DNA of 53,700 nucleotides from a virus, in IMG/VR virus record IMGVR_UViG_3300037504_000611, positions 1 to 53,700 of that record; one strand, given 5' to 3'. Shown one piece after another: positions 3,145 to 53,700 of this stretch; the first letter of the stretch is position 1, and every line of letters begins with the position of its first letter. The translations under genes were made by a program, and so were the position numbers. The notes beneath the pieces were generated by a model that was not told the origin of the DNA, ran no database searches, and saw only the letters and a list, made by a program, of their open reading frames with translations.

Positions 3145-3614
3145 AAACTGATTTGCAGGTTGTGCTGCCCCGTCGGCTGGTGTTGGATGGAAGAGCGTTC
3201 GACAGGGCCATCAATAACGGGCTCCAGGCTAGCGCGGAGGCGGCGAGAGAGGATTTTCGCGTCACAACCCAGACGTGGAAAACGGACGTACGCTTCCGCA
3301 TTGTCAAGGGCCGATTTGCCCGAACGGTGGCTACCTCAAACAAAATCTATGGCTATGTCAACGACGGCACGCGCCCGCACATCATTCGCCCCAGGCGAGC
3401 CAGGGCATTGCGTTTTCGCACACCGTACCGTGCGAAAACCAGAGTGGGGAAAATCAGCAGCAGACGTGGCGGGTATGGAGACACTGTCGTTTATACGCGT
3501 ATCGTGCAGCACCCCGGTACAAAAGCACGGGGGTTCGCCAAAGCCATACAGCAGAAATGGCGCGAATTGTTGCCTCGGACAATGCAGCGCGCTATTGATA
3601 GCGAGGTGAGGTAA
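3141..3614 (+). CDS. HK97 gp10-like head-tail/tail-completion protein
   Basis: I place the start at ATG 3141, in the ATGA overlap with the upstream stop; a longer frame runs upstream but overlaps a real gene. The 157-residue product has the family pattern: a conserved GYVNDGTRPHII segment, a basic ARALRFRTPY stretch, and the C-terminal VQHPGTKARGFAKA motif seen in HK97 gp10-type minor tail or neck proteins. Such proteins join the completed tail to the head. It is encoded before the capsid gene, an unusual order, although the module is clearly structural. Confidence 0.7.
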   Translation: MKTDLQVVLPRRLVLDGRAFDRAINNGLQASAEAAREDFRVTTQTWKTDVRFRIVKGRFARTVATSNKIYGYVNDGTRPHIIRPRRARALRFRTPYRAKTRVGKISSRRGGYGDTVVYTRIVQHPGTKARGFAKAIQQKWRELLPRTMQRAIDSEVR

Positions 3615-4177
3615 TGAGCTCGATTTCCTGGCAGGACACATGGGAGCGCGTGGCCGATATCACCAGTTGGCTGGAGGAGCCGGAGGCGCGACTGCTATAC
3701 GACCTTGCCACCCCTGGCGCCATAGTGATTGACCTGGGCGTGGCTCGTGGTCGCTCAACAATGGTGATGGCAGCGGCGGGCGCTACGGTGTTTGCCGTGT
3801 CGCTGTGGGATTGGGATTGGGAGGGTACCTGCGAGGAGTTCCAGGCCACACGGGAGCGTTTCCCCGAGGATGCACAACGTCGCGTGATACCTATATACGG
3901 CACTTCGTGGGACGTGCTAGCGTGTCTGAGACAGGCCAGGGTGCAGGCCAGCCTGGTTTTTGTGGACGCATGCCACGATTACGAGTGTGTGAGCCAGGAC
4001 GCAGCAGTAGCAGCGCGCATTCTTACGCCAGGAGGCAAAATAGCGTTTCACGACTACGGTATGCCCAACTGGCCAGGTGTGCAATGTGCTGTTGACGAGC
4101 TGTTGTCTTGCGGATGGAAGATGTCCCGTCGTGTGACGGGGCATACATTGGCTGTGTTGGAAAGGATGTGGGAGTGA
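3614..4177 (+). CDS. Class I SAM-dependent methyltransferase (family 24-like)
   Basis: The 187-residue product shows a Rossmann-type methyltransferase: VIDLGVARGRST (SAM-binding motif I, about residues 38-49), a later LVFVDACHDYE, then LTPGGKIAFHDYG and GVQCAVDEL. These match the Methyltransf_24 group, whose members often methylate sugars or small molecules next to glycosyltransferases. It lies in the head operon about 3.4 kb upstream of two glycosyltransferase genes, so methylation of a glycan on the virion is a reasonable guess. The substrate is unknown. Confidence 0.8.
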   Translation: MSSISWQDTWERVADITSWLEEPEARLLYDLATPGAIVIDLGVARGRSTMVMAAAGATVFAVSLWDWDWEGTCEEFQATRERFPEDAQRRVIPIYGTSWDVLACLRQARVQASLVFVDACHDYECVSQDAAVAARILTPGGKIAFHDYGMPNWPGVQCAVDELLSCGWKMSRRVTGHTLAVLERMWE

Positions 4178-4608: not shown

Positions 4609-6150
4609 ATGCCATACACAACGATACAACGGAATGATATGCATTGTGTGGTCAAGGTTGGGCAGGAGTCGGGCCGCGTGTTCGGTTGCCACCGCTCTCC
4701 ACAGGCTGCATATGCGCAGATTGCTGCGATTGAGGCCAGCGAACAGAAGGACGTCGATTCTGGCGAGCTTGATAGAGTGTTTGCCGCGTATCACGACACG
4801 GTAAACATGAGCGCTTCTGAACTGGAGGCGTGGGGCGATACTGAGGCATCACAACTCGCATCCCAGGACCGGTCTCCCATCCGGCGCAACCTGCGCCTGT
4901 TGCGCACCCCGAAGAGCGAATGGACGCAGCGCGATATTGACGACGCGAACAAAACCATATCGTTCGTGGCGCGTATGAGCGCAGCCGAGCAGGGAGAGCC
5001 GGTCATTACGCAGGGAACGCGAGAGTATAGTAAACGCGACATTTCCCTCCTCAATTGGGCATACGACCCGAAAAAAACAAAATCGTTCACCGTCAACAAG
5101 CAGCGTGACGGGCGTTATCGGTGGGCGGCTGTGACCAGCACCGCCTATCTGGATAGAGACAACGAAATTGTCAGTCGGGAGGCGTTGCGCGGAGTGGTTG
5201 AGCGAGGCGACCGCACAGGCGAGCGAGGTGTCTTGCGCTGGTGGCACGAGCCGGGCATCGACCTCGGCACGATAGATTTCCAGGCTCTCCACGATAACGA
5301 CCGCCTCCTGGTTGAGAGCGGCACATTTGCCAGTCCGGTTGTAGGAGAGGCCGTGGCAGCACACCAGGATGATTTAGGTTTGTCTATCGGGTTCTGGCCT
5401 GGCGCAGGGCAACCCGACACCAGCGGAGTGTTTACCGATATTCGAAAATTCGAAACCAGCCTGCTCCCAAAACAGCAGGCCAGCAACAGGTTTACCAACA
5501 TCACTATCCAGAGAGAGGAGAAAGGTATGCGGGCAGAGAAGATCAATGCTCTTCGTGAGCTATTGAGCGATGATGATACATTGCAGTCATTGCTGGCCAG
5601 TGCAGACAATACCGCCAGCGCTGCCAGTAGTAGCGGGCTGCACTACAAAAACGCCGACACGATTGTAACGCCGGACGGCCACGAGTGGCAATATAGCGAT
5701 GGCTCGTTCGTGGCGGTGCCGCCTCCTGCCGAGCCCGAGCCGGAGCCGGAGCCAACGGTAAAAATGACGTTGCCTGTTAGTCGTGATGAGTTGGCGGAAC
5801 TGATACGGTCCGCCGTTATGGCAATGATGGACAGCTATACCGACCGAATGGCTGACAAAATGCGAGAGGGGATGGAAGGCTATCGCATGAAGGCCGCTGA
5901 TGTGCTGCAATCTGAACTCGCCACGCTCAAAGAGCAGCGGGCCCAGGCTGAACAAACCATTGCTGGCCTCGATGCACGCCTGAAAGAGTTGGAAGGCGAG
6001 CAACCGCGCGCTGCCACGAGCAACGGGTATCGCCCTACGCAGGATGACAGCACCGTTGTGGGCAAGGCGCAGCAGGGCGCGCCGCAGGAAGACACACTTG
6101 AGCACACTGTGAAAGATATGATGGCCACCCTTCACGGGTTTCAGGGTTGA
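4609..6150 (+). CDS. Prohead protease-scaffold fusion protein
   Basis: The 513-residue product starts with a short module (HCVVKVGQESGRVFGCH, residues 11-28) often seen at the N-terminus of phage proteases. It then has a charged linker and a prohead protease-like domain (about residues 165-290): YRWAAVTSTAYLDRDNE, RWWHEPG with the likely catalytic His, and LGLSIGFW with the likely catalytic Ser. Residues from 307 onward are helical, with a Pro-Glu repeat near 375-385 and a coiled coil near 430-470, typical of internal scaffolding protein. It lies immediately before the major capsid gene. The protease processes the scaffold and capsid protein during head maturation. An internal start at 5527 is annotated separately. 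Confidence 0.75.
   Translation: MPYTTIQRNDMHCVVKVGQESGRVFGCHRSPQAAYAQIAAIEASEQKDVDSGELDRVFAAYHDTVNMSASELEAWGDTEASQLASQDRSPIRRNLRLLRTPKSEWTQRDIDDANKTISFVARMSAAEQGEPVITQGTREYSKRDISLLNWAYDPKKTKSFTVNKQRDGRYRWAAVTSTAYLDRDNEIVSREALRGVVERGDRTGERGVLRWWHEPGIDLGTIDFQALHDNDRLLVESGTFASPVVGEAVAAHQDDLGLSIGFWPGAGQPDTSGVFTDIRKFETSLLPKQQASNRFTNITIQREEKGMRAEKINALRELLSDDDTLQSLLASADNTASAASSSGLHYKNADTIVTPDGHEWQYSDGSFVAVPPPAEPEPEPEPTVKMTLPVSRDELAELIRSAVMAMMDSYTDRMADKMREGMEGYRMKAADVLQSELATLKEQRAQAEQTIAGLDARLKELEGEQPRAATSNGYRPTQDDSTVVGKAQQGAPQEDTLEHTVKDMMATLHGFQG
5527..6150 (+). CDS. Predicted nested scaffolding protein from an internal in-frame start
   Basis: ATG 5527 is in frame with the protease gene and is preceded by a strong GAGAGGAG site at 5513-5520, exactly at the boundary between protease and scaffold regions (residue 307). 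Translation would give a 207-residue scaffold alone: N-terminal helix, Pro-Glu spacer, coiled coil and acidic tail. Phage lambda makes its Nu3 scaffold in the same way from inside the C protease gene. The nested product is inferred from the start site, not proven. Confidence 0.6.
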   Translation: MRAEKINALRELLSDDDTLQSLLASADNTASAASSSGLHYKNADTIVTPDGHEWQYSDGSFVAVPPPAEPEPEPEPTVKMTLPVSRDELAELIRSAVMAMMDSYTDRMADKMREGMEGYRMKAADVLQSELATLKEQRAQAEQTIAGLDARLKELEGEQPRAATSNGYRPTQDDSTVVGKAQQGAPQEDTLEHTVKDMMATLHGFQG

Positions 6151-6165
6151 GGAGAGGAAAACACA

Positions 6166-7614
6166 ATGACTGTAGCAATTGATTATCAGCAACTCGCCAC
6201 GGCCCTGTTGCAACAGCAGGGTGGAGCGCAATACAAAGCGGCTGCGACCCCCCCGACCGGCGTATACGCGCACGGCCCAGGGGGGCTGTTTAGCTACCCC
6301 GGCGTTTCTCGCCCATTGTTTTCGGCTATGCCGCTCCCGCGAATGGGGCTGCAATCCATGTTGCCAGTGCGCCCCAGTCGAGACACAAATCCGCTCTATG
6401 GCATACTGACAGGCCAGACCGCAACAACGGGCGATGAGCCCGACAGTGTGTGCGACGATCCGCCGACGTCTGGCCTCCTGAAACTCTGTTTGCAACAGTT
6501 GCCATTCGGGCGCCAGACGCGCCAGACGCGCTCATACGACATTATGACCGCCGGAGAGATGACGAACCGTGGAGAGTTTTCTGATTACATTATCTACGGC
6601 AATCCCGCAGGCATGGAAACCACAGGCAATGTCCCCTCTATCCCCGGCGCGGATTTCGGACGGGCAGCGCAGTCGGATTTTATAACGGCAATGACCGAGC
6701 TGGCCGTGGCGTGGATGCGCGATTTTGCCCGAGAGATATATACCGGTAATCCAGGCGATAACACGGGAGGCCGGGAATATTTCAACGGCCTGGACAGGCT
6801 CATTAACAATTCTCGCATCGATGCGGTCACTGAAACCGCGTGCTCTGCTGCAAATAGCCTGATATGGCCGTTCAATAGCGCTGATGTGGCAGAAAACAGC
6901 GACCTGATTGTCAGGACCATCACGAGCATGTGGCGTGCGCTGAATTACCAGGCCAGCAGGAATGGGCTGTTGCCCGTCCGGTGGGCCATCACAATGCCGT
7001 TTGGGCTGTTCTATGCACTGACTGACATCTGGCCATGCTCGTTCATGACATTTCGTTGTTTAGCCAATACAACGAACACGAACGCGAGTGTTGATGTGGA
7101 CCCGATGGAGGCGGAGCAGATGCGCAGCAATATGCGCGGTGACCTCTACAATCGCAACAATCAGTATCTGCTGATTGACGGTCAGCAGGTGCCGGTCATT
7201 ATTGACGATGCATTGGAGCCATCGGATGGCACAAATGTGTCTGACATATATTTTGTGCCTATGACCGTTATGAATAGCGTTCCCGTCACCTATATGGAGT
7301 ATTTTGATTTCAACTCGCCGGGGGGCGCTCGTGATATGGCAAATAGCATGACTGCCGCGCGCTCGTTTTACACAACGGACAACGGACGGTTTCTGTTCGG
7401 GAACAAACCACCGTCCAATTTCTGTGTGCAAACCGTTGCCGGAGCACGGCCACGCCTCGTGCTGCTCACCCCGCAGATTGCGGGGCGATTGACCGACGTC
7501 GGCTGGTCAGAGCTCATTACGCCGGCGCCCTGGGACCCGTCCGCGCCATCGTTTGTGAACGGCGGTCAAACGGGCTACAACTGGCCATCTGATTTCTACG
7601 GCCCTAGCAGTTAG
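6166..7614 (+). CDS. Major capsid protein (probable HK97 fold)
   Basis: The 482-residue product follows the protease/scaffold gene by 15 bases, with a GAGGAGAG ribosome site, which is where the major capsid protein is found in HK97-type phages. It is soluble, has no signal peptide, and contains long regions of mixed alpha/beta character, such as DFITAMTELAVAWMRDF (a candidate spine helix) and the Asp-rich VPVIIDDALEP segment often seen in capsid proteins. Assignment rests mainly on position and size; I see no short diagnostic motif. It has several Cys residues. Confidence 0.75.
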   Translation: MTVAIDYQQLATALLQQQGGAQYKAAATPPTGVYAHGPGGLFSYPGVSRPLFSAMPLPRMGLQSMLPVRPSRDTNPLYGILTGQTATTGDEPDSVCDDPPTSGLLKLCLQQLPFGRQTRQTRSYDIMTAGEMTNRGEFSDYIIYGNPAGMETTGNVPSIPGADFGRAAQSDFITAMTELAVAWMRDFAREIYTGNPGDNTGGREYFNGLDRLINNSRIDAVTETACSAANSLIWPFNSADVAENSDLIVRTITSMWRALNYQASRNGLLPVRWAITMPFGLFYALTDIWPCSFMTFRCLANTTNTNASVDVDPMEAEQMRSNMRGDLYNRNNQYLLIDGQQVPVIIDDALEPSDGTNVSDIYFVPMTVMNSVPVTYMEYFDFNSPGGARDMANSMTAARSFYTTDNGRFLFGNKPPSNFCVQTVAGARPRLVLLTPQIAGRLTDVGWSELITPAPWDPSAPSFVNGGQTGYNWPSDFYGPSS

Positions 7615-7622
7615 GAGCCTGG

Positions 7623-8273
7623 ATGTACACCGTTCTGGTGACGACCTACAACCGCAAAAACATGCTGCTGGAGTGCCTCGCACGCCTCCAGCAGCTATCG
7701 CCTGCCCCTACTGCTGTGGTCGTGGCCGACGACGGCAGCGACGACGGGACTCCCGCCGCTGTAGCGGAACGGTTCCCGAGCGCAGACGTGACAGCAACCA
7801 ACCGGCGCGGGCTAGGAGCCAATACCAACACCGGGCTACACGCTGCATTCGGCAGTGCTGATATTGTTCTGCAATTGCAGGATGATATATTTTTGCGCAC
7901 CCCATTAGACCTGACGCCGCACATTGCCGCTCTGCAATCAGAGGAGTATGCCGATGTGGCCTGGATACGACTGGCAAATGTGCATAGTCACGGCCTCAAT
8001 GCTGCTATGCGGCGCGATTACTGGATTATCGATTGGAACAGTCCTGGTGTCTATATTGCCAGCGACCAGGTGCATATAAAGCACAGGCGGTTCCACGATG
8101 TGTATGGATACTATCCCGAGGGATTGCGCATCGGCGATACCGAAAACACATGGTGCGGAGATGTAAAAGCCCGTGGGCAGCAGCTAGGAGCTCCCCGCGT
8201 GGCTGTGCCCGTCTATCTGAACGGACAGCAATGGACGCACGAGGGCGCCTCGTGGCAGTCGCAGGGGTTGTGA
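7623..8273 (+). CDS. Family 2-like glycosyltransferase (GT-A fold)
   Basis: The 216-residue product opens with YTVLVTTYNRKNMLLECL and has VVVADDGSDDGTP, the nucleotide-sugar-binding Asp pair of GT2 enzymes, then LQLQDDIFL, a DxD-like metal site. It is a single GT-A domain without membrane helices, so it should act in the cytosol on a soluble acceptor. It sits 8 bases after the capsid gene and one base before the triple glycosyltransferase. The acceptor is unknown: virion protein, host glycan or modified DNA base are possible, and the position within the capsid operon favours a virion protein. Confidence 0.85.
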   Translation: MYTVLVTTYNRKNMLLECLARLQQLSPAPTAVVVADDGSDDGTPAAVAERFPSADVTATNRRGLGANTNTGLHAAFGSADIVLQLQDDIFLRTPLDLTPHIAALQSEEYADVAWIRLANVHSHGLNAAMRRDYWIIDWNSPGVYIASDQVHIKHRRFHDVYGYYPEGLRIGDTENTWCGDVKARGQQLGAPRVAVPVYLNGQQWTHEGASWQSQGL

Positions 8274-8274
8274 T

Positions 8275-10926
8275 ATGCGTGTCTACCTCCCGCCATTGGC
8301 AGATATCAATCACGGAGTGGGGCAGGTTCTGGCGGCTCAGCATAGGCACCTCCCCGCGTCTGGAGTAGAGATAGCGGTCAGTCCTGACGATGCCGATATA
8401 GTGGCAGCGCACATCATCCCCGATACGGACCGCGTGCCCGATGTGTTGCATTTGCACGGCCTGCACTACGATAGCGCGGCTCCCGACGATCGCGACGTGA
8501 ACCGCCGTATTGTGCCGCATATCAGAAGTGCTCGTGTTGTGACTATGCCGTCTGAGTGGGCCGCGTTGCCCCTCCGGCGCGATATGCGTATAATTCCCCA
8601 GGTTATCCCTAACGGCATCGATGTGGATAGATGGCAACCAGGCGACGCACGACCGTACGCGCTGTGGAATAAAAACCGCATGGACGCAACCTGTAATCCC
8701 GCAATGGCTCTCGAACTGGCACGACGCGGCATTCCGGTGGTGAGCACCTATGCGCCCGCTGTACAGCGCCCCGACACCCTGACTGTGACGGGGAAAATGC
8801 CACACGAGCAGATGCGAACGTATATCCAGAACGCGGGCGTGTACCTCGCCACGACACGCGAGGTACACAGCATTGGAGTTCTGGAGGCGTTAGCGGCGGG
8901 CGTCCCGGTCCTTGGTTGGAATATGGGCGGCACGGCAGAGACGGTGCTGCACAAGGTGACGGGATGGTTGGCAGAGGAGGGCGACATTGAGAGCCTGATA
9001 GAGGGCTATCACTGGCTGATGCGCAACCGACACCTCATTTCTGGCGAGTGCCGCATCCTCGCACAATCGTATGATTGGGGGGCGATTATGCCGGAGTATG
9101 CGCGTGTGTATCACGATGCATTGACCGGCAAACAACAAGACACGAACAGGGTTGCAGTGGTCATTCCCTGCTATAACTATGCTCACTATCTTGCACAGGC
9201 GATAGAGAGCGTCTTGCCGCAATTAGAGGAGGGCGACACCTGCATAGTCGTTGATGATGGCAGCAGCGATAATACGAGCGATGTGGCCGAGCGATATCCT
9301 GTTGAGTTTATCCGGCAGCAAAATCAGGGCGTGAGCGCGGCCAGGAACGCGGGGGTTGCCGCTGTGTCACAACCATATATTATCTGTCTCGATGCCGACG
9401 ACCAACTGGTGCCGGGGGCTATCGACACATTGCGCGGAGCTATTCAGACTCGGCGCGACATCGGCATTGTCTATGGCTCGCTACGCACAATGGACGCACA
9501 GGGCAATGATACCACAGGCGGATGGGCGCGCCACTGGCCACCGCAATTTGATTGGCAGAACCACCTAGAGCACGGCAATCATATCCCGTGTGCGGCAATG
9601 TTCCGCCGGGAGATGTGGCGCCGCGCTGGCGGCTATCACGTTTTTGGCGGGTGCGAGGATTACGAATTCTGGTCACGCGGTCTGTCGATTGGTTTTACCG
9701 CCCTCAGAGTCACAGACCAGCCTACATTTTGTTACCGCCAGCACCCTGAGGGCAGGAGCAATCACCTGGAATGTCCTCCGTTGGCCAGCAGGCACCCGTG
9801 GGCTATAGACAGACACTACCCAATGGGCGCTCCTGCTGCACACGGGCCGATTGTGCGCTCCTATCGCAGGCCAGTTGTCAGTGTCATTGTGCCCGTAGGA
9901 CCTGGACATGAGCGCTATGTGAGCACGGCAATAGAGAGCCTGTTGTCGCAAACGTTCCGTGATTGGGAATGCGTTGTCGTTGACGATACACACGACGGCA
10001 TCCCACGCCTCAATCTGGAGGCATATCCGTTTGCGCAGCCTGTTCGTACGTCGTGCGGAGCGGGCGCAGGCGCGGCGCGCAATGCCGGACTGGATGTTGC
10101 CAGCGCTCCGTTGTGTCTGTTTCTGGACGCCGATGACTATCTATTGCCTGTCGCAATTGAACAAATGATCGATGCGTACCAGACAGCGGACAACGTGTCC
10201 TACATCTATACCGACTGGTTTGTATGGAGCGACGGCAAACCAGAGCGGCGCCATTGCGCGGCGTATCGCCAGAATGCATGGCTCACAAATGGATTACACA
10301 GTGTAACCGTCCTGATGGACACAGAGCACGCTCGTGCGGTTCGTTTCAACGAGGATATGCCCTCCTGGGAGGATTGGGATTTTTTCGCACGCGCTGCTAT
10401 AGCCGGGTATTGTGGGCAACGTCTGGCGCTGCCACTGTTAGGCTATCGGGCCGATACGGGCCAGCGCCGCCGCTACGCGATGCAAAACAGCACAGAATTG
10501 CGCAACGAGATAACCGCCCGCTATGGCCCGTATGCAAGAGGAGAAAAAACAATTATGGGATGCTGTGGAGGAAAAAAGACCTCTCCGCCGATGGTGGACA
10601 GCACACCGATACTCGGCGCTGCCGCCGCCACAGACGGCAACGTGCGTATGGAGTATCTGGGTCAGCAGTCCGGGGCAATAACCTATCGAGGCGCGCAGGG
10701 ACGCGCCTATCGGGGAGGCAACAACCCGCATCGGAAATACGCGAATGTTCACCCTGACGATGTGGAGCGTCTGGCCAACACCGGCAAATGGCGAGTCGTT
10801 GAGGCACCTGCTCCGATTGCGCGCACGGCAGAGATTGCACCGCCGCCGGAAACAGCCACACCAGAGGAGCCATCTGATGATGAGCAACAAACAGCGCCAA
10901 AGCGCAAGCGCCGCTCCCGCAGTTGA
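8275..10926 (+). CDS. Triple glycosyltransferase (GT4-GT2-GT2) fused to a small C-terminal domain
   Basis: The 883-residue product has three enzyme domains. Residues 1 to about 285 are GT-B, family 4-like: VLHLHGLHYD, VIPNGIDVDRW, then EVHSIGVLEALAAGVPVLGWNMGG, the GT4 donor-binding region. Residues about 293-500 are GT2: VAVVIPCYNYAHYL, CIVVDDGSSDNT, ICLDADDQL. Residues about 535-755 are a second GT2: VVSVIVPVGPG, CVVVDDTHDG, LFLDADDYL. From residue 761 a separate domain begins (MGCCGGKK, ITYRGAQGRAYRGG, YANVHPDDVERLANTGKW) with a Lys/Arg tail; I recall similar short proteins in phage structural regions. It has no membrane helices. It probably builds a short glycan, and the fused domain may bring the enzyme to the capsid. 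The fused domain also has its own start at 10555. Confidence 0.85.
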   Translation: MRVYLPPLADINHGVGQVLAAQHRHLPASGVEIAVSPDDADIVAAHIIPDTDRVPDVLHLHGLHYDSAAPDDRDVNRRIVPHIRSARVVTMPSEWAALPLRRDMRIIPQVIPNGIDVDRWQPGDARPYALWNKNRMDATCNPAMALELARRGIPVVSTYAPAVQRPDTLTVTGKMPHEQMRTYIQNAGVYLATTREVHSIGVLEALAAGVPVLGWNMGGTAETVLHKVTGWLAEEGDIESLIEGYHWLMRNRHLISGECRILAQSYDWGAIMPEYARVYHDALTGKQQDTNRVAVVIPCYNYAHYLAQAIESVLPQLEEGDTCIVVDDGSSDNTSDVAERYPVEFIRQQNQGVSAARNAGVAAVSQPYIICLDADDQLVPGAIDTLRGAIQTRRDIGIVYGSLRTMDAQGNDTTGGWARHWPPQFDWQNHLEHGNHIPCAAMFRREMWRRAGGYHVFGGCEDYEFWSRGLSIGFTALRVTDQPTFCYRQHPEGRSNHLECPPLASRHPWAIDRHYPMGAPAAHGPIVRSYRRPVVSVIVPVGPGHERYVSTAIESLLSQTFRDWECVVVDDTHDGIPRLNLEAYPFAQPVRTSCGAGAGAARNAGLDVASAPLCLFLDADDYLLPVAIEQMIDAYQTADNVSYIYTDWFVWSDGKPERRHCAAYRQNAWLTNGLHSVTVLMDTEHARAVRFNEDMPSWEDWDFFARAAIAGYCGQRLALPLLGYRADTGQRRRYAMQNSTELRNEITARYGPYARGEKTIMGCCGGKKTSPPMVDSTPILGAAAATDGNVRMEYLGQQSGAITYRGAQGRAYRGGNNPHRKYANVHPDDVERLANTGKWRVVEAPAPIARTAEIAPPPETATPEEPSDDEQQTAPKRKRRSRS
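10555..10926 (+). CDS. Predicted nested small protein at the end of the triple glycosyltransferase gene
   Basis: ATG 10555 is in frame with the glycosyltransferase and has an AAGAGGAG site at 10536-10543, 11 bases upstream. Starting here gives 123 residues: a Cys-rich MGCCGGKK N-terminus, a small beta-rich part ending in the VHPDDVERL motif, a Pro/Glu linker and a very basic C-terminus. Both a fused and a free form may be made. It lies in the head-to-neck interval, so a structural role is possible. Confidence 0.5.
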   Translation: MGCCGGKKTSPPMVDSTPILGAAAATDGNVRMEYLGQQSGAITYRGAQGRAYRGGNNPHRKYANVHPDDVERLANTGKWRVVEAPAPIARTAEIAPPPETATPEEPSDDEQQTAPKRKRRSRS

Positions 10927-11194
10927 CATAGCGGCCATATTGGCAGTCTATCGTGCTGCGCATATGATTGCGAGAGAAGACGGGCCGGGCGCCTGTTTTG
11001 AGCGACTACGCGCTGCCGCGTTTCGCTGGCCGATACTCGCGGACGGTCTGCATTGCCCGCTCTGTGTGTCGTTCTGGCTGGCGTTGTTGTTGCCGCACGC
11101 TCCCCGATGGCTGCTGCGATGGCTGGGCGTTGCGGGAGCCGTGCTCGTTATTCATCAGGCATTGGAGGGCTGGAATGAATTTACTACCGATTGA
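10877..11194 (+). CDS. DUF1360-like small membrane protein
   Basis: I place the start at ATG 10877 (a second ATG follows at 10880), behind AGAGGAG, overlapping the end of the preceding gene. The 105-residue product has the DUF1360 pattern: LAVYRAAHMIAREDGPG, then ILADGLHCPLCVSFWLALLL with a CxxC pair next to a membrane segment, and a second hydrophobic segment WLGVAGAVLVIHQAL. Relatives occur in phage structural regions and in spore-forming bacteria; their function is not known to me. Confidence 0.7.
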   Translation: MMSNKQRQSASAAPAVDIAAILAVYRAAHMIAREDGPGACFERLRAAAFRWPILADGLHCPLCVSFWLALLLPHAPRWLLRWLGVAGAVLVIHQALEGWNEFTTD

Positions 11195-12410
11195 GACATT
11201 TCGGGAGCACATTAGCTACCATCCATTCCATTTTTGGCAACTGGCCAACAGCGATATACCTGTTCAGTCGAGTTGTAATACGCTGGTGTACGAACACGCA
11301 TGGCAGGGAACAGACGCGGCGGGGCGCGCCACCGTGCGGCGGGCGATAGAACAGGCTGAAGAGCGGTTGCGCACATATTTACTGTATAGTGTAGCTCCCC
11401 GCTATGCCAGTATGACGCTCCAATACCCTGATTACTATCAGCCCGCACTGTATCGCAGCAGGCCAGCGAACAGCAGAGGGCAATGGTTGAGCGTCGAGTT
11501 GCCCGAGGGGTATGTACAGGCGTTAGGCACAGAGAGGCTCAGCCTGATAGACAGTCCAGCGGTTTTGCTCTCTGACAGCGATAGCGACGGGTTGAATGAC
11601 ACATTCACGCTGACTGTCAGCACCACTGTCACAGATGCCGACCAGTTAACGGTGTTTTTCTCCGAGCCGGATCGGCTCGACAACGACCTGGCGCGGTGGG
11701 AGATACGACCGGTGGCTGTTGCACTGGATGCGGAAACCGAAACCGCCATCATCACGGGGAGGCTATGGCAAATTGTGCGACCGGTGCTATACCAGGGCGT
11801 TGTGCTGCGCACGATAGACCCGGCAGACAGCGCCAACCTGGCCGCCACACTGGATGTCTATCAGCGCACAACCGACAGCAGCCAGCAGGCGACACTGATA
11901 TGGGAGACGCTGCCCTGCCCCTCCTGGTGTGATACTCGCACGGGGAGCACAGACCCCGCTGCCATTGCCACCGCTACAGCCCGCGTGGGAATACGGGATG
12001 CCAGGAACGGCATCCTCAGCCCGGCAGAGGCAGTCTATAACAGCGACAGCGGTACATGGACCAGCCTATCGGGTTGCTGGTGGGGCGATAGCCGATTGCC
12101 GGACCGGGTGAAAATCAATTATCTGGCTGGCTACCCGCTGGAAAACCGTCGCATAGCCGCGTGGTTACGCCCTGTTGTGACGCGATTTGCCATAGCGGAG
12201 CTAGCGCAGCGCATTTGCACCTGCGACTATGCCAATCGAGAGCTCTGGCACTGGCAATTTGATCGGGCCAGCACCAGTGGAAACAACGATGAAACCTATC
12301 AGGTGAGTGAAGAGGATTTAACCAATCCGTTCGGAACGCGTCTGGGCCATATAGACGCGTGGCGTCGCGTGCGTGGCGAGCGGAGAATGCCCGCCATATT
12401 ACCGTATTAG
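11175..12410 (+). CDS. Putative neck/head-tail connector protein
   Basis: The start at ATG 11175 (MNLLPIETFREHI) lies inside the last codons of the previous gene; the frame continues upstream but that part overlaps other genes. The 411-residue product has an N-terminal helical region with an AEERLRTYL segment, and a later beta-rich half. It lies between capsid genes and the tail-tube gene, where connector or adaptor proteins are encoded. An insertion of about 150 Asp/Thr-rich residues in the middle (DSDSDGLNDTFTLTVSTT) looks like a surface beta domain. Function is inferred from position only. Confidence 0.45.
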   Translation: MNLLPIETFREHISYHPFHFWQLANSDIPVQSSCNTLVYEHAWQGTDAAGRATVRRAIEQAEERLRTYLLYSVAPRYASMTLQYPDYYQPALYRSRPANSRGQWLSVELPEGYVQALGTERLSLIDSPAVLLSDSDSDGLNDTFTLTVSTTVTDADQLTVFFSEPDRLDNDLARWEIRPVAVALDAETETAIITGRLWQIVRPVLYQGVVLRTIDPADSANLAATLDVYQRTTDSSQQATLIWETLPCPSWCDTRTGSTDPAAIATATARVGIRDARNGILSPAEAVYNSDSGTWTSLSGCWWGDSRLPDRVKINYLAGYPLENRRIAAWLRPVVTRFAIAELAQRICTCDYANRELWHWQFDRASTSGNNDETYQVSEEDLTNPFGTRLGHIDAWRRVRGERRMPAILPY

Positions 12411-12425: not shown

Positions 12426-13952
12426 ATGCCACAGGTTAAAAAAAGCAACATTATAACCCAACAACACAACCGAGTTTTCCGCCAGCCAGGTGGAGCGTTT
12501 CCCGGCAATCCGGTGGAGTATAGCGGAACTGATGGTCAATATATGTCGATTATGGGCGTGAGCAATCCCGTGTCGGGAGGCATAGACCCGATCCAGGTGG
12601 GGGACCCCTACCGCGCCAAACAATACGCAAGTGTAGCTCGGAGCGTCAGCCCTCCCGATTTTGCCACCGCCACATTGATGCTGTATGAGGACCAGGGTGG
12701 CGAACTGCCCTGGCAGATCATAGACGCGTCTTGCCCATTCACTCTCTATATTATTTCAACGACGTGCGGCAATCCGTCGGATTTCCTGGCGGGGTGGTCG
12801 AATTTTGTTGAGGTGTTTTCTCAATGCGAGGTCACGGATCGCTCTGGCGGGGACCGTGCGCCATTCGATAGCGATGAAGCGATCAGTGACGAGCTTTCCA
12901 TCACGATCCAGGCGCACTACGCGGTGGGTAAACTGGGGTTTGGTGAGCGCGCTGCGACGCAGGTGGAGCGAGAAGTTGTGGCGATTACCTATGGCGACAC
13001 CTTCCAGTGCGCCGATTGCGGCGTGCCGAACGATGGCACAAAATGGCTCTATGCTGCAACTAAATTTGACGCCGGTTCTGTCATTAGCGCCGAGGTAGTC
13101 TATTCAACTGACGCGGGGTTGACATGGTCTGACGCAACCGTCGTCGCTGATGAGAACCCGGTCGCTATTGGAATAGCCGGAAACAAACTGGTAGTTGTCA
13201 CCACGGCTTCGTTGTATTGGGCAGAGATTGACGAGGACACGGGTGTTCCCGGATCGTTTACGACCGTCACCCCAACGACCTGGGCAGCAAATGCGCCAGC
13301 AGACGCGTTTTTTGCCGGGCCGCGCGAGGTGTATGTGTGCGGTGCGAACGGGTATGTGTGGCTGTTTACAGACGTTACGAGTGCGCCGGTGGTGCTCACC
13401 GATGGCAGCACGACCGCAGAGGATTTGAAGCGCATTAAAGCGGTTGATGCTGTGGTCGTGGCGAGTGGGGCGAACGGCACGGTAATCGTCAGCACGAATC
13501 GCGGCCAGACGTTTGCGCAAACCAGCGCCGATCCGTCTGCCGATACGCAGCAAGCGCTGGGAGTTGTGAGCGACAAAATTATGTGGACAGGCACTGACGG
13601 GGGAGAACTCTACTACACGCGAAACGGCGGCAAAAGTTGGACTGAAAAGGTGATCGACGGATCGGGCACTGGGGAGGTCTACGACATCCTGATTGCTACA
13701 GCCGAGGTGGTATACGTCAGTCATAGCGACGCCACGCCACGGGCGCGGTTGTTTTCGAGTTGGAACGGTGGTGAAACGTTCACTCGCATGGCGCCCCGCA
13801 TTCTGAATTTTCCTGATTTTGATAGAGCAACGCGCCTGGCCGCTCCTCTGACAGGTACGCCAGGCATCGCTGCGAATAACATCGCCATCGCCGGGCTGGC
13901 CGACAACGCCACGGACGGTATTATTTTGCAGGGTATTGCAGGGGTGAAATAA
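12426..13952 (+). CDS. Putative tail-tube protein with a C-terminal BNR/Asp-box beta-propeller
   Basis: The 508-residue product has an N-terminal region of about 190 residues and then a propeller with repeated Asp-box motifs: STDAGLTWSDA, STNRGQTFAQ, TRNGGKSWTE and SWNGGETFTR. The gene lies directly upstream of the two overlapping chaperone-like frames and the tape measure, the place of the major tail-tube gene, so the N-terminal domain is likely the tube subunit and the propeller an outward decoration. Asp-box propellers occur in sialidases and sugar-binding proteins, but the motif alone does not show catalysis. It ends TAATG with the next gene. Confidence 0.6.
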   Translation: MPQVKKSNIITQQHNRVFRQPGGAFPGNPVEYSGTDGQYMSIMGVSNPVSGGIDPIQVGDPYRAKQYASVARSVSPPDFATATLMLYEDQGGELPWQIIDASCPFTLYIISTTCGNPSDFLAGWSNFVEVFSQCEVTDRSGGDRAPFDSDEAISDELSITIQAHYAVGKLGFGERAATQVEREVVAITYGDTFQCADCGVPNDGTKWLYAATKFDAGSVISAEVVYSTDAGLTWSDATVVADENPVAIGIAGNKLVVVTTASLYWAEIDEDTGVPGSFTTVTPTTWAANAPADAFFAGPREVYVCGANGYVWLFTDVTSAPVVLTDGSTTAEDLKRIKAVDAVVVASGANGTVIVSTNRGQTFAQTSADPSADTQQALGVVSDKIMWTGTDGGELYYTRNGGKSWTEKVIDGSGTGEVYDILIATAEVVYVSHSDATPRARLFSSWNGGETFTRMAPRILNFPDFDRATRLAAPLTGTPGIAANNIAIAGLADNATDGIILQGIAGVK

Positions 13953-31265: not shown

Positions 31266-31354
31266 GCCTCCTTCTCTCCGAACATCGCGTCAACGGTAAA
31301 GCCGGACGGCGTGTGTATGGCGCGTTTGGCGGCAAGAAAATCGGTGTAGTTCAT
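31262..31354 (-). CDS. 30-residue peptide between the DndC-like and Dam genes
   Basis: ATG 31354 sits in an ATGA overlap with the DndC-like stop and the gene ends in a GTGA overlap with the Dam start, with AGAGGA upstream. Both couplings suggest it is really translated. The peptide (DFLAAKRAIHTPSGFTVD) resembles the N-terminal element seen on some phage helicases and methylases, so it may be a remnant of a longer protein. Confidence 0.45.
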   Translation of the reverse strand: MNYTDFLAAKRAIHTPSGFTVDAMFGEKEA

Positions 31355-32631
31355 CGTGTATCCTCTAGTGAGAGCAGGAGCGGCTGCTCGATGCCCTCGG
31401 CCAATATCTGGGGCAGCAACTCGGCCCCGTTCGGCTCGGTGCCGTCCCATTTGCCAGGCCAGGTATTGAGGGCGTGCAGTTGCACAATGCGCCCATACTC
31501 GCGCCCGTTGATAAGCTCCATTGCTGGCATATTGTTCTGGTGTGCCCCCTGAAAGACCTCGCGCTGAATTTGCAAAATCTCGGCCAGTCCCCACTGCCGG
31601 GCCTCCATCGTGAGCGGCCCTTTGCGCCCCGGGTTTTTAGAGAGCGTGCCGTCCTTCTTGCGCTCGGTGCCGTCTTTTTGCAGCCGGTTGCCGTGCTTGC
31701 GCAGTTCGAGGCTGATCGGGCGCAGGCGTTTCAGGGGAGCCAGGTGCCCCCAGCGCTCCGGGTATTCGCTCAATAGGTGGTCAAGGGCTACGTCTGTCGT
31801 CGCTAGTTCGCAGCCCGTGCAGCCGGTGCGGGCGTTGAGTTCTTTCTGGTCTCCCTCTTCACTCACGCCGTATACATCTGCAATCATCTGCGTATCGAAG
31901 CCGTGTGACGGCGCAAAGAACATCAGCCAGTCCCAGACGTGGCACAGCCGCCAGTGCAGCAACGGAGCCAGGGTGTCAGCCAGGGCTGTAGGCGTAGTCT
32001 CCTGATACCATCCCTGCCCACATTCGCCACCGTCTTTGCCGCAGGCCAGGGCAATGCGCTGGTCACGCGCTGCACTTTCGCCCATCCGCAACCCGGTCAG
32101 CATCAGGATTTTCTCATTGCCATACCCCTGGTAACGCCAGCGTTTGTGGCGCTTATCCCAAACCATCTGCCCCAGGCCCAGCACGGCACCGTGCTGGGCA
32201 AGTGCGTTATTCATTGGTTCGATTTTGATTTGCCGAGTACACCAGCGGAAGGTCATATTGTTGGGCGGTGGCACGCCTCGGCCTAACATATAGACATAGA
32301 AACGCTCATCAAGCGGCGGCAATACCACCTGTGCGTTGACCTCGCGCTGCCTCATCGTGCGCAGCAGGTGCAAGGCACTGGCTTGCAGCGGCGGCAACTC
32401 GCGCCGGGTATCGGCATAGAGCACAGTCAGTGTCTCAGGACGCGGCACCTGCCCTGACTCAATGAGCCAGAGCACCAACGTTGTTGTGGCGGTGCTGTCC
32501 TTGCCCCCACTGAACGCTATGGCCCAATGTCGATAGTTTGCAGCATAGGCGTACAGGCTATCAATGGTCATCTGGATGGCATCGTTCATCGTCATGCGTT
32601 GCTCTTCCCAGAGCGAAAGTTGTCGTTTCAT
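31351..32631 (-). CDS. DndC/PAPS-reductase-like ATP pyrophosphatase
   Basis: The 426-residue product has the PP-loop SGGKDST (41-47) of adenylating sulfurtransferases. It also has Cys residues at RWCTRQIK and TGCTGCELATTD, which resemble the iron-sulfur ligands of DndC (RWCTxxLK and GCxxC). DndC works with DndA, D and E to put sulfur into the DNA backbone, but no such partners are in this genome. It may use host partners, reduce sulfate, or act alone in another modification. It starts at ATG 32631 behind GGAGGAGAG and lies between the other DNA-modification genes. Confidence 0.75.
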   Translation of the reverse strand: MKRQLSLWEEQRMTMNDAIQMTIDSLYAYAANYRHWAIAFSGGKDSTATTTLVLWLIESGQVPRPETLTVLYADTRRELPPLQASALHLLRTMRQREVNAQVVLPPLDERFYVYMLGRGVPPPNNMTFRWCTRQIKIEPMNNALAQHGAVLGLGQMVWDKRHKRWRYQGYGNEKILMLTGLRMGESAARDQRIALACGKDGGECGQGWYQETTPTALADTLAPLLHWRLCHVWDWLMFFAPSHGFDTQMIADVYGVSEEGDQKELNARTGCTGCELATTDVALDHLLSEYPERWGHLAPLKRLRPISLELRKHGNRLQKDGTERKKDGTLSKNPGRKGPLTMEARQWGLAEILQIQREVFQGAHQNNMPAMELINGREYGRIVQLHALNTWPGKWDGTEPNGAELLPQILAEGIEQPLLLSLEDTR

Positions 32632-51959: not shown

Positions 51960-53265
51960 GCAATGGCTACGCCAGCGATGGCGCAGCAGTAGTGGACTGG
52001 AACTCGCTCCCAGATCAGATGTGTCTCCTGAGCCAGCTTACGAGCCACGGGGCGCAGCGAAAGCCCTCCAAACCATTACCGCTCCCGAGGTAGTGGTAAG
52101 CGGCCCTGCCGGCACGGGCAAAAGCCGAGCCTGTTTACATAAGATACACACCGCAGCAAAACGGAACGCTCGTTTTCGCGGGCTAATTGTGCGGAAAACG
52201 CGCGAAAGCCTGTCGGAAACGGGGCTTTTTACGTTTGAAACTTATGTGCTTGGCAGAGAACACCCGCTCGTTATTGACGGCAAGCCGCAGCGGCGGTTTC
52301 GGCAGGTGTACAGCTATCCCAACGGGGCGCAAATCGTGGTGGGGGGACTGGACAAGCCGTCAAAAATCATGTCCACCGAGTACGATATTGTTTTCGTGCA
52401 GGAGGCAACCGAACTGCAAGAAAGGGACTGGCAGGCGTTGCTCACCAGGCTCCGCAATAATGCGCTGCCATACCAGCAACTAATAGCGGACTGTAATCCA
52501 GACGCTCCGACGCACTGGCTGTATTTGCGCTGCTTGTCCGATGCGGCGCAGCTCTTGCACAGTCACCACGAGGACAACCCGCGCCTGTATGACGATGGCG
52601 AGTGGACGCCTGAGGGCCGGGACTATCTCGCGAAACTGGACAGCCTGACAGGCACCGAGCATGAGCGCCTCCGGTGGGGCAAATGGGTGCAGGCCAGTGG
52701 GTTGGTCTATGATATGTGGTCTGACGACAATGTCACCGCCGATGCCGACTACACCCCCGGCGCTGGACCGGTTCTGTGGGGCGTTGACGATGGCATGCAG
52801 GGCGAACGCGATAGCACGGGCCTGTACACACTCAACAGCCACCCGCGCGTGTTTTTGCTGGCGCAACTCAGGCATGACGGTCGCCTGTGCATATTTGCAG
52901 AGCACCATACTATAAAAACACTGAGCGATACGCAATTGGGGGACGTGCTCGCATTGCCGTACCCGTTCCCGGATTATGCCGCCGTTGATAAATCGGCCTC
53001 TGATTTGCGCGCGCGGATGCATCAGGCGGGAGTTGAAACGCGCAACAGTCCGAGCAGTGTCGAGGAGAGCATTAAAACATTGCAGCATATGATTGCGCCT
53101 GACACAAACGACTGGCGGCGGGTGCTGGTGCATCCTCGTTGCAAACTGGTGCGACATGAGATGGTGTCGTATCAACGCCACCAGGCCACCGGGGCACCCA
53201 TCAAAAACAACGATCACGCTATGGATGCGCTGCGCTATCTGGCGTGGACTGTGAGGTATGATTGA
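51931..53265 (+). CDS. Terminase large subunit
   Basis: I choose ATG 51931. The 444-residue product has Walker A GPAGTGKS (58-65), Walker B IVFVQE (153-158), a nuclease domain with WGVDDGMQ, YAAVDKSASD and NDHAMDALRYLAW, the acidic sites of the RNase-H-like fold. It packages DNA into the head. The mix of residues does not by itself tell headful from cos packaging. It ends ATTGA, overlapping the portal start. Confidence 0.9.
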   Translation: MPGTLTRQSRQWLRQRWRSSSGLELAPRSDVSPEPAYEPRGAAKALQTITAPEVVVSGPAGTGKSRACLHKIHTAAKRNARFRGLIVRKTRESLSETGLFTFETYVLGREHPLVIDGKPQRRFRQVYSYPNGAQIVVGGLDKPSKIMSTEYDIVFVQEATELQERDWQALLTRLRNNALPYQQLIADCNPDAPTHWLYLRCLSDAAQLLHSHHEDNPRLYDDGEWTPEGRDYLAKLDSLTGTEHERLRWGKWVQASGLVYDMWSDDNVTADADYTPGAGPVLWGVDDGMQGERDSTGLYTLNSHPRVFLLAQLRHDGRLCIFAEHHTIKTLSDTQLGDVLALPYPFPDYAAVDKSASDLRARMHQAGVETRNSPSSVEESIKTLQHMIAPDTNDWRRVLVHPRCKLVRHEMVSYQRHQATGAPIKNNDHAMDALRYLAWTVRYD

Positions 53266-53700
53266 CTGTAGAGGACATACAGAAACAGAGCGTCACCAGG
53301 CACGATAATGTGCTGCATTTTGTCCCCTGGTACGGGTATGGCTATGGGCGCGGAGGAGTGACGCTGCCCACATTTCCGCCCGAATACTGGAGTCGAGAGC
53401 GCGATGCTGTGTTACGCAGCACCGTGCATCATAGCGCGGTGTGGGGGAACGCCATAGCTATCGCTGTGTCAAAAATGGCCTCGTTGACCTGGCAGGTGGA
53501 GAGCGACCGACCGCTCCGGCGCAATCGGGCATATGACCTGCTGCATAGCGCGGGAGGCGGGGGCGGGTGGGTTGGGTTTCTTGCGAAACATCTGCGCGAT
53601 TTCCTGACCACTGACAACGGAGCGTTTGTCGAGATAGTCAGGTCAAGTTCTGCGCGTGGCTCTCGCATCATTGGACTGGTCCATCTGGACAGTATGCGAT
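53262..53700 (+). CDS. Phage portal protein, N-terminal part (gene continues at position 1)
   Basis: TTG 53262 overlaps the terminase stop (TTGA). It encodes the first 104 residues up to 53573 and the frame then continues as bases 1-1107. There is no ATG further upstream in the frame before the stop of the terminase gene. The sequence begins LTVEDIQKQSVTRHDNVLHF. Confidence 0.85.
   Translation, partial: MTVEDIQKQSVTRHDNVLHFVPWYGYGYGRGGVTLPTFPPEYWSRERDAVLRSTVHHSAVWGNAIAIAVSKMASLTWQVESDRPLRRNRAYDLLHSAGGGGGWVGFLAKHLRDFLTTDNGAFVEIVRSSSARGSRIIGLVHLDSMR
53574..53700. repeat. Terminal direct repeat, right copy (circular closure)
   Basis: Identical to bases 1-127; see that entry. Confidence 0.95.

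Follow-up and report, generated by a model that had tools for sequence, protein, structure and literature searches.

In phage virions known to be glycosylated the enzymes are, to our knowledge, encoded by separate genes. Glycosylation of capsid and tail tube is reported for the mycobacteriophages Che8, Corndog and Myrna (PMC12363180; PMC11256854; Freeman et al. 2023 as cited there). The cluster of Che8 contains one GT2 protein and one (gp108) in which GT2 is joined to Methyltransf_24/TylF; each GT has its own gene, far away at the genome end, outside the capsid operon and unfused to any virion-like protein. Protease C and scaffold Nu3 of phage lambda provide a second comparison, since they share a reading frame and C-terminus by means of an internal start, and the shared part brings the protease to the head. 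The two proteins interact and act together in head assembly (PMC3224144). Tandem GT2 domains are found in bacterial chondroitin synthase (2z86, 2z87), which makes a capsule polymer and lies outside phage operons. Finally, the small phage proteins of DUF7302 and phrog_748 have a short beta-rich fold and stand alone in isolated phages.

We have analysed a stretch of viral DNA of 53,700 nt (IMG/VR record IMGVR_UViG_3300037504_000611), termed here the window. As in the mycobacteriophages, the predicted glycosyltransferases (GTs) are encoded by the phage; the similarity between the Che8 and window enzymes is only at the level of the GT2 fold. The first-pass annotation had placed a single-domain GT2 and a GT4-GT2-GT2 protein directly behind the major capsid gene, and exact coordinates, Pfam domains and a model of the capsid protein confirm this (Table 1). 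Only 8 nt separate the capsid stop codon from the gene for P0001, and 1 nt separates the latter from that for P0002. P0001 has orthologues at the same site in L004 and L005 (43-44% identity). The capsid protein has no match in Pfam or PHROG. Its AlphaFold model has a pLDDT of 85 and the 50 best PDB matches listed are all HK97-fold shells, some of them encapsulins (best 5e-9), so that the protein is predicted to adopt the HK97 fold. The protease label of the gene 5′ of it was assigned by reading rather than from a family match. Between the portal and capsid genes the window also encodes a Laminin-G/concanavalin-like lectin domain protein (1817-2569), found in L004 and L005 too.

Table 1. Features of the capsid and glycosyltransferase locus in the window.
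Feature	Coordinates	Strand	Basis
Methyltransf_24 methyltransferase	3614..4177	+	PF13578 7e-14; in relatives often adjoins GT gene
SCAF, prohead protease/scaffold-like	4609..6150	+	conserved directly 5′ of capsid gene; weak scaffold matches
Major capsid gene	6166..7614	+	predicted HK97 fold
P0001, single-domain GT2 glycosyltransferase, 216 aa	7623..8273	+	PF00535 E 4e-15
P0002, GT4-GT2-GT2-tail protein, 883 aa	8275..10926	+	Pfam, full-length relatives
GT4 domain, residues 1-285	8275..9129	+	PF00534 7e-15 (residues 166-252); EX7E E196/E204
First GT2 domain, residues 289-500	9139..9774	+	D373-A-D375, E461-D462
Second GT2 domain, residues 531-755	9865..10539	+	D618-A-D620, E699-D700
Shine-Dalgarno-like AGAGGAG	10537..10543	+	precedes nested ATG at 10555
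Tail module / putative nested gene, 123 aa, MGCCGG...	10555..10926	+	start codon, Cys pair, weak DUF7302/phrog_748
HT413, ~411-aa gene 3′ of tail gene	11175..12410	+	homologues in 67 loci
Asp-box/BNR-like propeller gene	12426..13952	+	conserved core gene, two positions 3′ of GT gene

By sequence, the three enzymatic domains of P0002 belong to known families. PF00535 matches at 4e-49 in two domains (residues 295-447 and about 535-745), each with a DxD motif and a putative catalytic ED as expected of GT2, and the N-terminal region has the PF00534 match and EX7E motif of GT4, with an additional weak match to PF13439 at residues 51-119. In 53 aligned triple proteins the EX7E glutamates are conserved at E196 (53/53) and E204 (52/53). 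The aspartate pair D373/D375 and the ED at 461-462 of the first GT2 domain are each present in all 53, while in the second D618/D620 and E699 are present in 51 and D700 in 49. Chondroitin synthase is the best PDB match to the GT profile (2e-40), in which the GT4 and tail parts of the phage protein have no counterpart in the solved chain. In two other proteins (L029 9977-12352 and L030 8906-11341) the second GT2 is a short remnant without catalytic motifs, while the tail is preserved together with its start.

A search with P0002 found four full-length relatives (42-53% identity), and each of them shares its C-terminal end. A profile built from the four pointed to 151 possible sites in IMG/VR, from which the 80 best loci were retained, and a second, capsid-based scan of IMG/VR gave 48 loci. 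Single-protein scans with the tail alone or the capsid alone gave no relatives, and none of the isolated-phage records matches either by sequence. The fused GT-tail was found in over 80 loci. Profile searches together with relatives at 31-53% identity bear out both the domain boundaries and the fusion that had been proposed for P0002, and this conservation rules out an assembly artefact as the origin of the fusion. The GT-based and capsid-based scans agree on the gene order, which is SCAF, capsid, a slot that ranges in length from 0 to 8.5 kb, (GT)n-tail, HT413 and the Asp-box propeller. The tail is preceded by GT4-GT2-GT2 in some loci, by GT2-GT2 in others, and elsewhere by one GT2 that follows immediately on the capsid gene; single-GT relatives retain the second GT2 domain of P0002, which is that nearest the tail. 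Mapped onto a tree of the capsids from 68 phages, this architecture requires 5 changes, compared with 20.5 when shuffled. The enzyme is thus inherited together with the capsid module, and is no loose moron. No GT-tail was found within the available sequence of L090, L110, L131, L127, L091 and some truncated capsid-based loci; in L090, with about 10 kb available downstream, the head module appears to be interrupted or rearranged. The phages carrying the fusion are a family of uncultivated tailed phages. A scan of genomes with the GT profile found two contigs of phage-like character, one in an Anaerolineae MAG (L136) and one in a Zixibacteria MAG (L137), too few to name a host, and lower-scoring matches in other genomes that are mostly to the GT parts.

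HT413, which has no match in PHROG or the PDB, is presumed to be a virion or neck protein, and the propeller is also presumed to be a virion protein. We note that the propeller is YCF48- and sortilin-like, and could be a glycan-binding virion protein.

The C-terminal domain of P0002 had been described as resembling a small virion protein. This holds to the extent that it has weak matches to small proteins of phages that carry a head-tail connector annotation. The last 123 residues match DUF7302 (PF23976) at 1.3e-4 with 22.7 bits, below the Pfam gathering cut-off of 24.9, and at 0.003 within the full protein; this is a resemblance in sequence and not membership of the family. The match to phrog_748 ('head-tail connector') is 0.004. 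Structure prediction, which the first-pass annotation had suggested for these residues, gave a confident core (AlphaFold AF2; residues 30-84, 55 residues, beta-rich, pLDDT about 96), but the fold has no match in the PDB. The best match among viral models has an E value of 0.013, and the matches are mostly small uncharacterised phage proteins, some of them named head-to-tail connector or virion structural protein. Min1 gp43, which at 88 aa equals one of the fold matches in length, lies directly after the capsid genes; it has no match in Pfam and no relatives by tblastn. We regard the tail as likely to be a head or head-tail protein. By prediction it shares the short beta-rich fold of the DUF7302/phrog_748 proteins, but differs from them in being fused behind GTs and in having a conserved pair of cysteines at its start.

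A point missed in the first reading is that the tail has its own conserved start codon and Shine-Dalgarno (SD) sequence. Across 49 aligned tails, invariance is confined to three columns, those of the first residue (Met, or Val with the codon GTG) and of two cysteines. The position of that first residue holds a start codon in every one of the 82 distinct fused loci that were scored (76 ATG and 6 GTG), with the qualification that loci were chosen by the Cys pair with M or V no more than six residues before it, so that the presence of Met or Val is partly selected. The exclusive use of GTG for Val, the excess of SD sequences and their spacing are free of that selection. GTG accounts for 35% of Val codons in the GT-tail genes. 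An SD core (AGGAG, GGAGG or GAGGA in the 18 bases before the start position) is present in 49 of the 82 loci, where 14.5 are expected when upstream codons are swapped for synonyms according to the gene's own usage. This 3.4-fold excess has P = 3e-27 if the loci are assumed to be independent, a value that is too small for related loci. The SD-to-start distance peaks at 7-8 nt; that in the window is 11 nt, at the long end of the range. For comparison, an SD core precedes 3% of the other internal ATGs (n = 945) and 3% of internal GTGs (n = 1345) of the same genes, and 73% of capsid-gene starts. On this sequence evidence the internal start is well supported. An in-frame internal start codon with a ribosome-binding site is the arrangement of lambda C and Nu3, so that by its sequence the tail looks like a nested gene of that type. 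In lambda the enzyme is a protease and the shared part a scaffold, and the likeness to the GT-tail is one of gene logic.

Three loci lie outside the 82. One of these, L124, carries the motif and was missed by the pattern. L058 keeps the fusion with GTT at the start position, and no separate tail-like gene was found in its available stretch. In L040 the fused tail is without the motif, and is followed by a separate gene (MPCRNCRQ...) with the SD sequence GGAGG. Comparison with relatives in which the C-terminal domain is a separate gene, which had been proposed as a check, is thus provided by L040 together with L041 and L051. In L051 an unfused tail (MACCGSKAK...) starts at 12384, just after the GT gene, which runs to 12382, and in L041 another gene lies between the GT gene and an unfused tail at 13159-13665 (MCGCKNGG...). 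All three separate genes begin at the same M-x-C...C motif. It might be argued that the tail serves only as a fused domain, with the ATG and SD-like bases as relics of a past fusion of genes, and that a free tail is not produced; virion glycosylation would still be right. The fused L058 without a start codon fits such an account, as does the near universality of fusion, which indicates that the fused form itself is selected. Yet relics sit poorly with a start codon in 82 of 82 loci and an SD core at 3.4 times synonymous expectation with canonical spacing, over deep divergence, or with three loci whose GT gene lacks the motif or tail and which each carry a free copy starting at that motif, and we consider this explanation unlikely. 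A free tail is nearly always encoded and the in-frame fusion is nearly always kept; both forms look selected.

The slot between the capsid and GT genes contains a sugar cassette. A Pfam scan of 146 proteins from this interval found DegT aminotransferase (17), GT2 (17), epimerase (14), Methyltransf_24 (14), Polysacc_synt_2 (9), sulfotransferase (7) and fucosyltransferase GT10 (3), some families overlapping on the same proteins, and one rhamnosyl O-methyltransferase family. DNA methylases numbered only 4 and 1. These predicted functions of sugar-nucleotide synthesis and glycan decoration fit glycan synthesis rather than DNA modification. The window has the simple form of the slot, with one extra GT2 and the Methyltransf_24 gene further upstream. 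The latter is the methyltransferase that had been linked to sugars from the window alone; it recurs in relatives, beside the GT gene. The Methyltransf_24 family is broad, and the link to sugars rests on that location and on the fusion to GT2 in Che8 gp108. The earlier proposal of a glycan-building system within the capsid operon is therefore supported in part, by linkage to the operon throughout the group and by the sugar genes in the same slot.

Enzymes of this kind could instead modify the host surface, in antigen conversion or superinfection exclusion, their place in the capsid operon giving only late expression. The GT2 domains match GtrB-like O-antigen conversion families in PHROG, the cassette enzymes resemble surface-polysaccharide pathways, and GT2-GT2 resembles chondroitin synthase. 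However, neither the GtrA flippase nor an initiating Bac_transf was found in 25 records, many of them fragments, in searches whose controls matched, and the 25 families listed in the cassette tally include no lipid-carrier enzyme. It would also be odd for a moron to be fused to a small connector-like protein and to be inherited along with the capsid. We regard this role as distinctly unlikely, and less likely than virion glycosylation.

Glycosylation of the phage DNA by these GTs has also to be considered, with the tail ends as DNA binders. An HhH domain is present at the end of 8 of the 49 tails (L020, L024, L027, L028 and L037 among them), and other tails have GRP (AT-hook-like) or basic ends, K/R-rich ends occurring in about 30% of tails; these could mean contact with DNA. 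The window encodes C5 and N6/N4 DNA methylases, and phage GTs with a role in DNA hypermodification are known (Pyle 2024, cited in PMC12619734). Against this, no thymidylate-synthase-like base hydroxymethylase (PF00303) was found in the 25 records, many of which are fragments. A search with PF12851 (TET/JBP) gave no match in its positive control and so bears neither way on TET/JBP. The cassette is multi-sugar, with sulfo and methyl functions, and the GT gene belongs to the capsid module rather than sitting among replication genes. DNA is thus a less likely target than the virion, and we think this explanation very improbable.

Our preferred reading, which we hold with a little more belief than doubt, is that the locus is a virion-glycosylation module in the capsid operon, with two products from one frame and the fused form bringing the GTs to the virion. 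Translation from 8275 would give the GT4-GT2-GT2-tail protein, and that from the internal ATG a free tail, a small DUF7302/phrog_748-like head or head-tail protein that would go to the assembling head. The fused form would share the address of the free tail, and so carry the GTs to the procapsid or neck, where a virion protein would receive a short glycan from them. In relatives this could be decorated with methyl, amino and sulfo groups. The first sugar is probably added by the GT nearest the tail, because this is the one kept in single-GT phages, and the upstream GTs would extend the glycan. That the free protein assembles while the fused form brings the enzyme is the simplest account by analogy with lambda C and Nu3. 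The first-pass annotation had seen the fused domain as placing the enzyme; it is probably not only a targeting tag, and is better seen as a nested gene that is predicted to be also made alone. The domains, catalytic motifs, capsid-operon linkage, sugar cassette and conserved internal start are read from the sequences. Synthesis of the two products, entry of the tail into the head or contact with it, and a virion protein as the acceptor are inferred. Against our reading stand the fusion lacking a start codon in L058, the weak DUF7302 and viral fold matches, the lack of a PDB fold match, the long SD spacing in the window and those tail ends that could mean contact with DNA. More tentatively, we suggest that this lineage, with the start of the small protein left within the enzyme gene, adds the GTs to the N-terminus of a head or neck protein in a minor form, such that capsid assembly recruits, and perhaps packages, its glycosylating enzymes.

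A dual product would link enzyme and particle protein in one gene, giving a model of assembly-coupled targeting that is testable by point changes. If true, it adds an enzyme class to the nested in-frame genes of phages; a literature search, with most subscription journals outside it, found nothing relevant on GT-virion fusions or nested phage GT genes. The locus also points to a diverse group of uncultivated phages with glycosylation in the core capsid module.

Some further features of the window are noted. A small membrane-like ORF (~10922-11194, + strand; VDIAAILAVYRAAHMIAREDGP...LCVSFWLALL) overlaps the end of the tail gene, and similar small genes lie 3′ of the tail in L007, L010, L041 and L136. 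A PAPS-reductase-like protein (PF01507) is encoded at 31351-32631, adjoining the C5 and N6 DNA methylases, with a similar protein in L090 (16980-18170). The portal gene is split across the window ends (1-1107 and 53262-53699), and the homologue in L004 spans both parts, so that the record appears to be almost complete, with circular permutation.
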